Assembly: GCA_029210645.1 (NCBI GenBank)
Contig: JARGFT010000001.1
Location: forward strand, 244,883 to 308,882
Length of the DNA: 64,000 nt
Source: Anaerosomatales bacterium
GTDB lineage: Bacteria > Actinomycetota > Coriobacteriia > Anaerosomatales > SLCP01
Direction of reading: 5' to 3'
This document shows positions 9,572-35,760 of the stretch, in pieces (within the stretch, counting starts at the first letter, position 1; each line of letters starts with the position of its first letter). The notes under the pieces were generated by a model that saw nothing but the letters and a program-made list of their open reading frames with translations, had not been told where the DNA came from and ran no database searches. Position numbers and translations under genes: made by a program.

Positions 9572-10573
9572 ATGACACGTAAGCGCGCGCTCACCGGCTA
9601 TCGGCCCACCGGCAAGCTCCACCTCGGCCACTGGTTCGGCAATCTCCAGAACATGCTGACCATGCAGAACGAGTACGACGCGTTCTACTTCATCGCGGAC
9701 TGGCACGCGCTCACCAGTGATTGGGCCGACACCACACGAGTTCGCGAGTTCACCGAGGAGATGGTACTCGACTGGTGTGCCGCCGGCCTCGATCCCGCGC
9801 GGTGCACCATCTACCGCCAGTCGGATGTCCCCGAGGTCGCCGAGCTTGCGCTCTACTTCTCGATGGTCACCCCGATGTCGTGGCTCGAGCGCGTCCCCTC
9901 GTACAAGGAGCAGCGCGAGCAGGTGACCGACAAGGACCTCGGCAACCTCGGCTTCTTCATGTACCCGCTGTTGCAAGCTGCCGACATCACGATCGTGCTT
10001 GCCGACGTGGTCCCTGTGGGCGAGGACCAGCTCCCGCACCTGGAGCTCACGCGCGAGATCGTGCGGCGGTTCAACAACGCCTACGGTGAGTATCTCGTGG
10101 AGCCTGCCGCGCTCATCGCGAAGCAGGGCGCACGGGTTCCGGGTACCGACGGACGCAAGATGAGCAAGTCGTACGGCAACTCCATCTTCATCTCGGACTC
10201 TCCCGACGAGATCACCGCGAAGGTGCGTGGCATGATCACCGACCCTGCGCGCAAGCTGAAGACCGATCCGGGCGACCCGGATATCTGTCCGCTCCACCAG
10301 ATACACAAGCTGGTCAGCCCCGACCCGGCCGACATCGCCGAGTGGGATCGTTGCTGCCGCAGTGCGGAGTGCGGTTGTGTCGCTCACAAGCAGAAGATGG
10401 CCACCGACCTCGTCGAGTACCTTGCCGAGTTCCGCGCGCGTCGCGAGGAGCTTGCCGCGCGGCCGGGCTTCGCGTGGGAGGTCCTCGAGGCCGGGGCCGC
10501 CAAGGCACGGCCGGTTACCTCAGAGGTCGTCGAGACCTGTCGGCGCCTCGTGCGCATCGACAACAACGGGTAG
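9572..10573 (+). CDS. trpS: tryptophanyl-tRNA synthetase with Fe-S-like cysteine motif
   Basis: Charges tRNA-Trp. Class Ic synthetase marks are clear: the HIGH-like HLGHW near residue 19, GEDQLPHLELTREI, and the KMSKS loop GRKMSKSYG near residue 195. At 333 residues it has the usual bacterial length. Near residue 235 it carries C-x22-C-x6-C-x2-H with one extra Cys between the second and third ligands. This is almost the C-x22-C-x6-C-x2-C motif that binds a [4Fe-4S] cluster in Thermotoga maritima TrpRS, with His in the last position. The stop TAG is in frame with the next gene, scpA. Confidence 0.95.
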   Translation: MTRKRALTGYRPTGKLHLGHWFGNLQNMLTMQNEYDAFYFIADWHALTSDWADTTRVREFTEEMVLDWCAAGLDPARCTIYRQSDVPEVAELALYFSMVTPMSWLERVPSYKEQREQVTDKDLGNLGFFMYPLLQAADITIVLADVVPVGEDQLPHLELTREIVRRFNNAYGEYLVEPAALIAKQGARVPGTDGRKMSKSYGNSIFISDSPDEITAKVRGMITDPARKLKTDPGDPDICPLHQIHKLVSPDPADIAEWDRCCRSAECGCVAHKQKMATDLVEYLAEFRARREELAARPGFAWEVLEAGAAKARPVTSEVVETCRRLVRIDNNG

Positions 10574-10585
10574 GGGGCGTCCCCG

Positions 10586-11335
10586 CTGGGCTACCGGGTC
10601 AAGATCGACGCCTTCGAGGGACCGTTCGACCTCCTGCTGCACCTCGTTGCACGGCAGAAGGTCGACGTGAGCTCGATCTCCATCACCGAGGTCACGGACC
10701 AGTACCTCGCCTACATCGAGGGAATGCACGAGCTCGACCTCGATGTCGCGAGCGACTTCCTGCTCGTGGCTGCCACGCTGCTCGAGATCAAGGCAGCCAG
10801 CCTGCTTCCCACAGAGGAGCAGTATATCGGCGAGGACATCGACGACCTCTCTCCTGAAGAGGCACGCGAACTCCTCGTGACCCGTCTGCTCGCGTACAAG
10901 CAGTTCAAGAACGTCGCTGCAGAGCTCGCGGCCCGGATGGAGTCGGTCTCGCACATGCATCCGCGTCAGGCAGGCCTTGAAGAGCCCTTCGTGGGGCTCA
11001 TGCCCGACTATCTCGAGGGCCTCACTCTGCGCGGTCTTGCGGTGATCTGTGCCGACCTTCTTCACAAGCGCGAGGTCTTTCTCCTGCAGGCAGAGCACGT
11101 TGCCGCGGCACCGATCAGCCTGGAGTTGCACACCGAGAGCGTGTCGCGGACCCTGGCGCGTGCGGGTACGGTACGCTTCAGCGAACTGCTCGGCACCGAC
11201 CCCACGCCAGAGGTCCTCGTCGTGACGTTCCTCGCCATTCTCGAACTCTACAAGCGGGGACGGGTTCAGCTGCGACAGGACGAACTGTTCGACGACATCG
11301 TGGTGACAGCCACCGACGTTCAGGAGGATTCGTGA
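10586..11335 (+). CDS. scpA: segregation and condensation protein A (kleisin), CTG start
   Basis: Kleisin subunit of the bacterial SMC condensin complex, which compacts and segregates the chromosome together with Smc and ScpB (next gene). The family's N-terminal signature, FEGPFDLLLHLV, is encoded between 10613 and 10648, upstream of the first ATG/GTG/TTG in frame (GTG 10667, the track start), so that start would remove the Smc-binding helix. The only reasonable initiator is CTG 10586, preceded by GGGGG about 8 bases upstream and giving LGYRVKIDAFEG. The frame is the same as trpS and opens right after its TAG. The C-terminal winged helix (VTFLAILELYKRGRVQL) is intact. Confidence 0.85.
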   Translation: MGYRVKIDAFEGPFDLLLHLVARQKVDVSSISITEVTDQYLAYIEGMHELDLDVASDFLLVAATLLEIKAASLLPTEEQYIGEDIDDLSPEEARELLVTRLLAYKQFKNVAAELAARMESVSHMHPRQAGLEEPFVGLMPDYLEGLTLRGLAVICADLLHKREVFLLQAEHVAAAPISLELHTESVSRTLARAGTVRFSELLGTDPTPEVLVVTFLAILELYKRGRVQLRQDELFDDIVVTATDVQEDS

Positions 11336-32536: not shown

Positions 32537-32989
32537 ATGCGTCTGACCGCCAAGAGCGAGTATGGATTGCTCGCCATGATCGATCTGGCGTGCAGGGTCG
32601 ATCAGGGTCCGGTCAGCGCTCGTGAGATCTCCGACCGCCAGGGCATACCCGCCAAGTACCTCGAACAGCTCTTCGTAGGCCTTCGCAAGGCGGGTCTCGT
32701 GGGAGCGGTGCGGGGCGCTCACGGCGGGTTCGCTCTCCATCGCCCGGCCGGCGAGATCACCGTCCTCGATGTCGTCGAGGCGCTGGAGGGTTCGCTGCGT
32801 CCGACGGTCTGCGACGGGGACAGAGCCGCTGCGTGCGGACGCGGTGACGCGTGTGCCGCGGCGGGCGTGTGGGACCGGGCCACCAGTGCCGTGCGCGATG
32901 TTCTGGAGTCCACGACGCTGGATTCGCTCGCTCGCACCCAGGAAGTCCTTGACGAGTCGGGTGCTGCCCGAAGTCCTATTGAGAGGTAG
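32537..32989 (+). CDS. Rrf2 family transcriptional regulator, IscR-like
   Basis: A 150-residue winged-helix regulator. It starts MRLTAKSEYGLLAMIDLA, typical of the family, with the recognition region IPAKYLEQLFVGLRKAGLV and the wing GAHGGFALHRPAGEIT. Near residue 95 three cysteines (C-x7-C-x5-C) could hold a [2Fe-2S] cluster as in IscR, whose spacing is C-x5-C-x5-C. Directly upstream of nifS and nifU, it probably tunes Fe-S cluster assembly to need. Confidence 0.9.
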   Translation: MRLTAKSEYGLLAMIDLACRVDQGPVSAREISDRQGIPAKYLEQLFVGLRKAGLVGAVRGAHGGFALHRPAGEITVLDVVEALEGSLRPTVCDGDRAAACGRGDACAAAGVWDRATSAVRDVLESTTLDSLARTQEVLDESGAARSPIER

Positions 32990-32998
32990 GAGAGCGTG

Positions 32999-34189
32999 AT
33001 GGAAGCCCGCGACGCATATCTTGACTACGCTGCAACCACTCCGGTCGACGAGCGGGTCCTCGAAGCCATGCTGCCGTACTACACACAAGTATGGGGCAAC
33101 CCGAATAGCCTCTACCGCCGAGGACGAGAAGCGTACACCGCGCTGGAGGCGGCGCGCGAGCGGGTGGTTGGAGCCATCGGTGCAACCCACCCTAACGAGG
33201 TCATCTTCACAGCCGGGGGCACGGAGGCCGACAACGCCGCGCTCATCGGCATCACGACCAGGGCGCGCCCGGACGGCGGACACCTTGTCGTCTCCGCCTT
33301 CGAGCACCACGCTGTCCTCGAGCCCGCCCAATTCCTCGAAAAGTCCGGCTACGCGGTCACGTATCTTGCTCCGCGCCCGGCGGGCTACATCGACCCCGAG
33401 GATCTGCGCAACGCCCTGCGCGACGATACAGTCCTCGTTTCGGTGATGCACGGCAACAACGAGATCGGCACCCTTCAGCCGATCCGCGAGCTGGCCGAGG
33501 TGGCACACGAGCGCGGTGCGCTGTTCCATACCGATGCCGCCCAGACCCTCGGGAAGGTGCCATTCAACGTTGCCGATCTCGGTGTAGATGCGGCGTCATT
33601 CTCAGGGCACAAGATCTACGGCCCGAAGGGCGTTGGCGCGTTGTACCTGAAGCGTGGGACCCCGTTCGCCCCGATGGTCCGCGGCGGCGGTCAGGAGTTC
33701 AAGAAGCGCTCCGGGACGCAGAACGTGGCGGGCATCGTCGGGTTCGCCACCGCGCTCGATCTGGTCCTGGCCGAGCTTCCCGAGGAGGCAGCGCGGCTCG
33801 CATCGCTCAGAGAGCGGATCGTGAGCGGAGTGACGTCAACGATCGAGAACACGATCGAGAGCGCGAGCTACCCCGAGCGTCTCCCGAACATCGCCCACAT
33901 GATAATCAAGGGAGTCGAGGGCGAGGCCATGCTGCTGCAGCTCGATGCCAAGGGCGTTGCGGTCTCGACTGGTTCCGCGTGCTCCTCGGGTAGCCTTGAG
34001 CCCAGCCACGTCCTGCTGTCGATCGGATGCCCGCCTGAGTTGGCGCACGGTTCAGTGCGCGTCTCGGTCGGCAGGTTTACGACCGCCGAGGACGTCGAGT
34101 ACTTCCTCGAAGTGTTCCCGCCCATCGTCGAGCGGCTGAGGATGATGTCTCCGCTCTACGCGAAGATGTACGGTTCGGCAACCACGTAG
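32999..34189 (+). CDS. nifS: cysteine desulfurase (NifS/IscS)
   Basis: PLP enzyme that takes sulfur from cysteine and passes it on as persulfide. It starts YLDYAATTPVDERVLEAML. The PLP lysine is in SFSGHKIYGPKGVGALY and the persulfide cysteine in STGSACSSGSLEPSHVL. The 396-residue length is normal. ATG 32999 is favoured by AGGAGA five bases upstream, over the GTG three bases earlier. Its neighbours NifU and MnmA are the expected sulfur acceptors. Confidence 0.95.
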   Translation: MEARDAYLDYAATTPVDERVLEAMLPYYTQVWGNPNSLYRRGREAYTALEAARERVVGAIGATHPNEVIFTAGGTEADNAALIGITTRARPDGGHLVVSAFEHHAVLEPAQFLEKSGYAVTYLAPRPAGYIDPEDLRNALRDDTVLVSVMHGNNEIGTLQPIRELAEVAHERGALFHTDAAQTLGKVPFNVADLGVDAASFSGHKIYGPKGVGALYLKRGTPFAPMVRGGGQEFKKRSGTQNVAGIVGFATALDLVLAELPEEAARLASLRERIVSGVTSTIENTIESASYPERLPNIAHMIIKGVEGEAMLLQLDAKGVAVSTGSACSSGSLEPSHVLLSIGCPPELAHGSVRVSVGRFTTAEDVEYFLEVFPPIVERLRMMSPLYAKMYGSATT

Positions 34190-34236
34190 AACGACGTCAG
34201 CAGGGCCGTGCGCCCGGATTCGAGGAAGGGAGTCCC

Positions 34237-34704
34237 GTGCTCTACAGCGAGAAGGTCATGGACCACTTCAACAACCCGCGTAACGTTGGTGTCCTCGATG
34301 ATGCCGATGGCATCGGAGAGGTCGGCAACCCGGTGTGCGGTGACGTCATGAAGATCTCCATCAAGGTGGCCGACGATAAGATCGACGACATCCGCTTCCA
34401 GACCCTCGGGTGCGGGGCTGCCATCGCGACCAGTTCGATCGTGACGGAGATGGCACGCGGTATGTCTCTTGAGCAGGCGGTCGCCATCACCAAGAAGCAG
34501 GTCGCCGAGGAACTCGGTGGTCTTCCGCCCGCGAAGATGCACTGCAGCGTGCTCGCCACTGATGGCCTCAAGAAGGCGGTTGACGACTATCTCGTGACGC
34601 ACGGTCGGGACCCCATCGCGGTCGGCACGATCGCCCACGACGACCCTGAGTTCGATCCACACGCCGAGGAGCACGACGACGCGTGTGAGGTCACCGAGGA
34701 GTAG
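34237..34704 (+). CDS. nifU: Fe-S cluster scaffold protein NifU/IscU
   Basis: Scaffold on which [2Fe-2S]/[4Fe-4S] clusters are built with sulfur from NifS. The three conserved cysteines are in GNPVCGDVMKI, TLGCGAAIATSS and MHCSVLATDG. It starts MLYSEKVMDHFNNPRNVG, as in the IscU-type family. The protein has 155 residues with an acidic C-terminal tail (DPHAEEHDDACEVTEE); there is no ferredoxin-like or Nfu domain. The start is GTG, 10 bases after AAGGGAG. Confidence 0.94.
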   Translation: MLYSEKVMDHFNNPRNVGVLDDADGIGEVGNPVCGDVMKISIKVADDKIDDIRFQTLGCGAAIATSSIVTEMARGMSLEQAVAITKKQVAEELGGLPPAKMHCSVLATDGLKKAVDDYLVTHGRDPIAVGTIAHDDPEFDPHAEEHDDACEVTEE

Positions 34705-34713
34705 CGCGCGCCG

Positions 34714-35760
34714 GTGGCCTCTGTATGGGTTGCGATGAGCGGTGGTGTGGACTCATCGGTCGCTGCGGCGCGTCTTGTCGGGCAGGGACACCGCGTGACC
34801 GGCGTGACGATGCAACTGCTGCCCGAGGGTGACGAGCCGGGCAGATGCTGCTCTACCGATGCGGTGCGTGCGGCCCGACGCGTCTGCGATCTTCTCGGCA
34901 TCGAACACTACACGCTCAACATGCGCGATGCGTTCGAGGCGGACGTCGTGGATCCTTTCGTGAAGGCGTACGCCTCGGGTCGCACGCCGAACCCCTGCAT
35001 CGCATGTAACGACCGGCTCAAGTTCGCCCTGCTGCTCGCGCGCGCACGCACTCACGGGGCCGAGGCGCTTGCGACCGGTCACTACGCGCGCATCGTGAGC
35101 GACGATATCGGCGGGTGCTGGCTTCATCGCGCACGTGATCCTGCGAAGGACCAGTCCTACTTCCTCTACCGGCTCGCCGAGCCCGCGATCGAGAGCGTGT
35201 GGTTCCCGCTGGGCGACACCACCAAGGCCGAGGTACGCGCCGAGGCGCGCAGCCTGGGCCTGCCCACCGCGGAACGCCCGGAGAGCCAGGAGGTCTGCTT
35301 CGTGCCGCAGGATGCGGGCTCGTTCGTGGCTGCGCGGGTGCCTTCCGCGGGATCGTCGGGTCCTATCCTCGATGAGCACTGCGAGCGGGTCGGCACCCAT
35401 GGAGGCGTCGGCCGTTACACGATCGGACAGCGCAAGGGTCTGGGGGTCGCCGGAGGCCCCTGGTTCGTGTCGGAGATCAGGCCCGCCACGAACACGGTTG
35501 TCGTCGCCCACGGGTCCCCCGTTCCCGTGATCTCCATCGCGCTCGAGGACGTGGTCTGGCGCGATGCGGCCTGCGCCCGGGTCGCTGCGGTCGTGAGATA
35601 CCGCTCGGACCCGATCCCTGCGTCGGTCACCCCGACCTCTGACGGCGGCGCACTCGTCGAACTCGATCTGCCCGTTGCGGGGGTCGCTCCCGGTCAGGCT
35701 GTCGTATGCTACACGGGTGACCGGGTAGTGGGCGGAGGAGTGGTGAGAGCGACGCGATGA
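34714..35760 (+). CDS. mnmA: tRNA-specific 2-thiouridylase
   Basis: Puts the 2-thio group on U34 of tRNA-Glu, -Gln and -Lys, using sulfur relayed from a cysteine desulfurase. The PP-loop is AMSGGVDSSVAA near residue 8. The two reactive cysteines lie in RTPNPCIACNDRLKF and ESQEVCFVPQDAGSF, and a C-terminal beta-barrel follows. The length is 348 residues. GTG 34714 is right because the PP-loop must sit near the N-terminus. The nifS-nifU-mnmA order suggests direct sulfur relay. Confidence 0.94.
   Translation: MASVWVAMSGGVDSSVAAARLVGQGHRVTGVTMQLLPEGDEPGRCCSTDAVRAARRVCDLLGIEHYTLNMRDAFEADVVDPFVKAYASGRTPNPCIACNDRLKFALLLARARTHGAEALATGHYARIVSDDIGGCWLHRARDPAKDQSYFLYRLAEPAIESVWFPLGDTTKAEVRAEARSLGLPTAERPESQEVCFVPQDAGSFVAARVPSAGSSGPILDEHCERVGTHGGVGRYTIGQRKGLGVAGGPWFVSEIRPATNTVVVAHGSPVPVISIALEDVVWRDAACARVAAVVRYRSDPIPASVTPTSDGGALVELDLPVAGVAPGQAVVCYTGDRVVGGGVVRATR

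Follow-up and report, generated by a model that had tools for sequence, protein, structure and literature searches.

The window, a 64,000-nucleotide stretch of an Anaerosomatales genome, contains a gene for a tryptophanyl-tRNA synthetase (TrpRS) in which the iron-sulfur ligand motif of the Thermotoga maritima (Tm) enzyme recurs with His in place of the fourth Cys. This raises the question of whether the site still holds a cluster and, if so, which residue completes its coordination. In the crystal structure of Tm TrpRS, C236, C259, C266 and C269 hold a [4Fe-4S] cluster, Arg224 contacts a cluster sulfide and, in a model of the complex with tRNA, anticodon residue C34 contacts the cluster through Cys266; the role of the cluster was termed unclear by its authors (PMC2954223). 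The window protein has the profile matches, signature motifs and fold of a bacterial class Ic TrpRS, scoring 277.7 bits against TIGR00233 (cut-off 176.75) and 205.7 bits against PF00579. Its top sequence match in the PDB is Tm TrpRS (2g36; phmmer, E 2e-86), and the same structure is the best match in a fold search with its AlphaFold model (pLDDT 94; TM 0.89/0.92, rmsd 1.8), the top matches of which are all TrpRS. The gene and its catalytic motifs are located as follows:

9572..10573, forward strand: trpS, tryptophanyl-tRNA synthetase, class Ic (ATG start, 333 aa; TIGR00233 and fold match)
9620..9631, forward strand: HIGH-type motif HLGH, TrpRS residues 17-20 (from the sequence)
10157..10171, forward strand: KMSKS motif, TrpRS residues 196-200 (from the sequence; invariant across the clade of His-bearing TrpRS described below)

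The source genome (2.0 Mb in 46 contigs, 100% complete) encodes a single TrpRS. Its other PF00579 match was rejected as a second copy, being 34% identical over residues 9-220 only and, at 434 aa, of the size of a TyrRS. A recoded or otherwise odd tRNA-Trp was likewise ruled out, the anticodon being CCA within an ordinary loop (CTCCAAA).

The original prediction described a C-x22-C-x6-C-x2-H motif with an extra Cys before the third ligand. This arrangement is present as C239-x22-C262-x6-C269-x2-H272, together with extra Cys at both 261 and 267, and in the phmmer alignment C239, C262, C269 and H272 fall on Tm C236, C259, C266 and C269. The residues concerned, with their occurrence in 59 relatives of the same clade and in 147 other TrpRS of the FeS type, are the following:

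10250..10252, forward strand: Arg227, equivalent of Tm Arg224 (alignment; 59/59 relatives)
10286..10288, forward strand: Cys239, ligand position 1, Tm Cys236 (59/59 clade relatives, 147/147 other FeS-type TrpRS)
10352..10354, forward strand: Cys261, extra Cys, probably not a ligand (54/59 relatives, 0/147 other FeS-type TrpRS)
10355..10357, forward strand: Cys262, ligand position 2, Tm Cys259 (alignment; 59/59 relatives)
10370..10372, forward strand: Cys267, extra Cys two residues before Cys269, candidate alternative ligand or second-shell residue (58/59 in the clade, 0/147 outside)
10376..10378, forward strand: Cys269, ligand position 3, Tm Cys266 (alignment; 59/59 relatives)
10385..10387, forward strand: His272, in place of ligand 4, Tm Cys269 (59/59 relatives plus locus L053)

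With His at the fourth position, neither the window protein nor the 60 clade members conform to the strict four-Cys motif C-x(21-24)-C-x6-C-x2-C; the three other Cys and the Arg224 equivalent, which identify the site as homologous, are retained throughout. The x22 spacing holds for the window protein but is not a constant of the family, since ligands 1 and 2 are separated by x21-22 in the His clade and by x19-22 in the other sampled FeS-type TrpRS; the x6 and x2 spacings are constant across all of them. Three predicted helices lie near the motif (240-248, 252-263 and 269-283). In the model, C239 immediately precedes the first and C262 is close to the end of the second, while C267 is in the loop between the second and the third, at the beginning of which C269 and H272 are separated by one turn. 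The window enzyme thus resembles Tm TrpRS (TM0492, 2g36) in full-length homology, fold, three ligands, x6/x2 spacing, the cluster-contacting Arg, and the HIGH-type and KMSKS motifs, and differs from it in the fourth ligand, in the extra Cys261 and Cys267 and by an overall identity of about 43%.

Conservation of the site was assessed in 230 usable TrpRS sequences: some 60 come from the order and class of the window, roughly 80 from elsewhere in the phylum and 80 from named loci in other phyla. The sample from other phyla corresponds to the best 80 loci listed, spanning about 20 phyla, so that His-type TrpRS may also occur elsewhere; the FeS-type motif was found in about 20 phyla among the loci listed, a distribution that extends beyond "mostly thermophiles and extremophiles". 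The 59 relatives represent the order of the window and three further families of the same class (f17, f20 and f21). R227, C239, C262, C269 and H272 are invariant in all 59, down to about 66% identity, and both synonymous codons are used at every ligand site (TGT and TGC for Cys; 53 CAC and 5 CAT for His272), indicating that the ligand residues are under selection. Poor conservation in close relatives, which had been named beforehand as an outcome that would count against the original prediction, was not seen: the four ligand positions are kept in 59/59 and C267 in 58/59. As 116 of the 327 alignment columns are invariant in the His clade, however, the invariance of any one site is in itself weak evidence.

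The nature of the replacements at the fourth position provides a stronger argument than invariance. The other three Cys are present in 207 of the sampled TrpRS, and in these the residue at position 272 is Cys in 135, His in 60 and Asp in 12 (L068, L070, L074, L092, L114, L115, L119, L122, L196, L201, L220 and L224); every one of them is thus a potential metal ligand. The Asp-type enzymes resemble the window TrpRS in substituting a possible Fe ligand at the same position while keeping three Cys, and differ from it in the residue chosen, in having no extra Cys and in having several independent origins, spread over different phyla. The sampled lineages that are cluster-free have lost three or all four ligands jointly, leaving patterns such as NYxDV, SYxYV, SIxxL and NYLDC. 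These site-less TrpRS come from families f48 and f75, from two Acidobacteriota and, as sampled, from f18, f19 and f23 of the window's own class. The class is thus mixed, with environmental lineages that retain the site and sampled members of those three families that have a different, cluster-free TrpRS; four f19 rows retain Cys at position 272 and no other ligand. The departure of one ligand from the defining motif could be taken to mean that the site is metal-free and its residues mere relics, but such a reading is highly improbable in view of the strict conservation across the whole order and beyond, and of the loss of at least three of four ligands wherever a lineage has lost the cluster.

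Some irregularities were observed in the sampled sequences. In two FeS-type TrpRS (L069 and L080), and in no other row, Ser replaces the first Cys and the other three are kept. The L220 record is titled as a Bifidobacterium breve MAG, and its TrpRS is almost identical in the tree to uncultured f36 sequences, so that its contig or title is probably misassigned. Six f40 genomes (G238, G251, G282, G292, G331 and G390; neighbours of L238) carry two TrpRS-like genes each, one of the FeS type and the other sharing about 38% identity with the L053 query.

Zn is bound well by Cys, His and Asp alike. Three Cys and one His that are strictly conserved fit a zinc site as well as an iron-sulfur cluster, and the residues could instead form a mononuclear Zn (or Fe) site, either Cys3-His or Cys4, serving the anticodon-binding domain as a structural knuckle. 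This alternative is nevertheless considered improbable, given that the homologous site of 2g36 is a cluster cavity, that the x6/x2 spacing and Arg227 are unchanged, and that the canonical four Cys are found in the sister and parental sequences.

The history of the substitution was reconstructed on a maximum-likelihood tree of 89 TrpRS rows from which the motif columns had been removed. All His rows form one clade in this tree (support 89/77), within which a core of 26 rows is supported at 100/100; one same-order relative, L154 from a groundwater 'Coriobacteriales' MAG, equals L024 in the columns used. The fewest changes on the tree are nine at position 272, one of them to His and the others involving Cys and Asp, and two at position 267. 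The change from Cys to His at 272 occurred once and persists in all 60 sampled descendants. Locus L053 (genome G477, family f90, outside the class), which is sister to the clade, combines His272 with Leu at 267, and L036, inside the clade, retains His272 with Val at 267. Together with the motif-free tree, these states indicate that His came first and Cys267 later, with Asp arising several times elsewhere. Since His arose once, its association with C267 amounts to one historical event rather than repeated evidence.

These observations also bear on the possibility that Cys267 is the true fourth ligand of a four-Cys site, with His272 as a second-shell or exchangeable residue. Its occurrence in the clade (58/59, versus 0/147 in other FeS-type TrpRS) and its modelled location, two residues ahead of ligand 3 in the loop that joins helices 252-263 and 269-283, would suit such a role. 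The possibility is regarded as unlikely because both L053 and L036 keep His where Cys267 is missing, which makes His272 the better candidate; H272 is, moreover, the stricter of the two (60/60), and the Asp variants tolerate a fourth residue other than Cys with no added Cys.

The substitution is accompanied by further changes around the site. When the clade was compared with the 147 other FeS-type TrpRS, the 20 most clade-specific columns included 8 (241, 242, 244, 248, 258, 261, 267 and 272) that lie within residues 236-275. This region accounts for 38 of the 322 columns (hypergeometric P 8e-4, a value that is somewhat generous because the region was picked for containing H272). At position 242 an aromatic residue gives way to His or Gln in the clade, and positions 261 and 267 become Cys. 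This pattern would fit a reworked pocket rather than a lone chance substitution.

Taken together, the most probable reading, to which we assign a probability of roughly 0.6, is that a [4Fe-4S] cluster is still bound at the site by Cys239, Cys262, Cys269 and His272, with C267 as a second-shell or back-up ligand. The earlier suggestion that a cluster may be retained, its fourth ligand being His or the extra Cys, is thereby well supported, though indirectly, by the 60 relatives, the restriction of replacements to Cys, His and Asp and the joint loss of ligands elsewhere. The swap from Cys to His took place in a common ancestor shared by one neighbouring family and the environmental clade of Coriobacteriia; later, Ile or Leu at 267 was replaced by Cys and adjacent residues were altered, which would have remodelled the pocket. 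The cluster would probably give shape to the anticodon-binding surface, as an element both structural and electrostatic. By analogy with Tm Cys266, Cys269 would adjoin anticodon residue C34, with His272 one helical turn further and Cys267 two residues before. With His, which is neutral, where a thiolate had been, the site beside the anticodon would be less negative and the potential of the cluster higher.

The genome of the organism is consistent with an anaerobe able to build clusters. An isc-type assembly cluster lies within the window itself:

32537-32989: Rrf2 regulator of the isc-type cluster
32996-34189: NifS/IscS
34237-34704: NifU/IscU
34714-35760: MnmA-like gene (named by reading its sequence)

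Assembly through SUF was considered and rejected, as the SufBD core, present in 14/14 control genomes, is absent from the source genome; the isc-type system (32537-35760) is likely its sole Fe-S assembly system. Pyruvate:ferredoxin-type oxidoreductases are present in all 31 genomes searched, including the source genome, whereas a haem-copper oxidase, found in 4 of the 31, was not found in the source genome. OPB41/Anaerosomatales isolates are anaerobes (PMC9686372). The Cys residues of the Rrf2 regulator are spaced C-x7-C-x5-C, with no His three residues past the last Cys, and the regulator thus differs from the 3Cys-1His site of IscR; its spacing recalls RirA.

A further proposal is that the site holds a cluster that is labile or of another size ([3Fe-4S], [2Fe-2S], or a [4Fe-4S] that is site-differentiated, its fourth ligand being weak) and that senses O2, redox or iron state and tunes the charging of tRNA-Trp. 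His or Asp ligation often accompanies lability or sensing, as in IscR, mitoNEET and NsrR (PMC11138216), the cluster pattern of COG0180 TrpRS is lost in aerobes (PMC5279795), and ligand 3 is near anticodon C34 in the Tm model (PMC2954223). We consider a sensor of this kind quite improbable, since redox-dependent charging was found for no TrpRS in the literature searched and the genome has a single TrpRS and an ordinary tRNA-Trp; with no second enzyme, switching TrpRS off would stop translation, a drastic switch. A related scenario, in which the fourth ligand has been re-chosen repeatedly, with C267 and His exchanging and the potential or occupancy of the cluster tuning tRNA-Trp charging to redox or iron state, is likewise doubtful.

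Coordination by three Cys and one His has natural precedents. The FS4C cluster of M3-type [FeFe]-hydrogenase is a [4Fe-4S] held by this same ligand set, although in an electron-transfer domain with unrelated fold and motif (PMC12645427). Changing His to Cys in a hydrogenase cluster moved its potential by about -65 mV (PMC12645427). The IscR and NEET sites also combine three Cys with one His, but are unrelated, carry [2Fe-2S] clusters and have known lability or sensing functions, and NsrR provides an Asp-ligated [4Fe-4S] (PMC11138216). A cluster variant with four Cys has been predicted for archaeal/CPR TrpRS (PMC5370408). The searchable literature (titles, abstracts and passages, with incomplete coverage of subscription content) yielded no account of a TrpRS whose fourth ligand position carries His or Asp. 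Cluster-type TrpRS being already known (PMC2954223), the strictly inherited His ligand swap is a real variant of it. The resulting natural series at one position (Cys, Asp, His, His with extra Cys, none) sits in orthologous, mostly single-copy enzymes, and an essential enzyme with a swapped ligand constitutes a natural experiment on the role of the cluster; comparing the variants could tell structural, anticodon-electrostatic and redox-active roles apart.

The immediate neighbours of trpS are ordinary, with a CPA2-type antiporter upstream and scpA, scpB and a pseudouridine synthase downstream, and the adjacency of trpS and scpA is found in many phyla. The start of scpA is apparently a CTG at 10586-10588, where the conserved N-terminus YRVKIDAFEGPFDLLLH begins and upstream of which there is no in-frame ATG, GTG or TTG. 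In most relatives the codon at this very position is ATG, GTG or TTG, and CTG is also found in L004 and L010; the standard ORF call for scpA begins at 10667, 27 codons too late.
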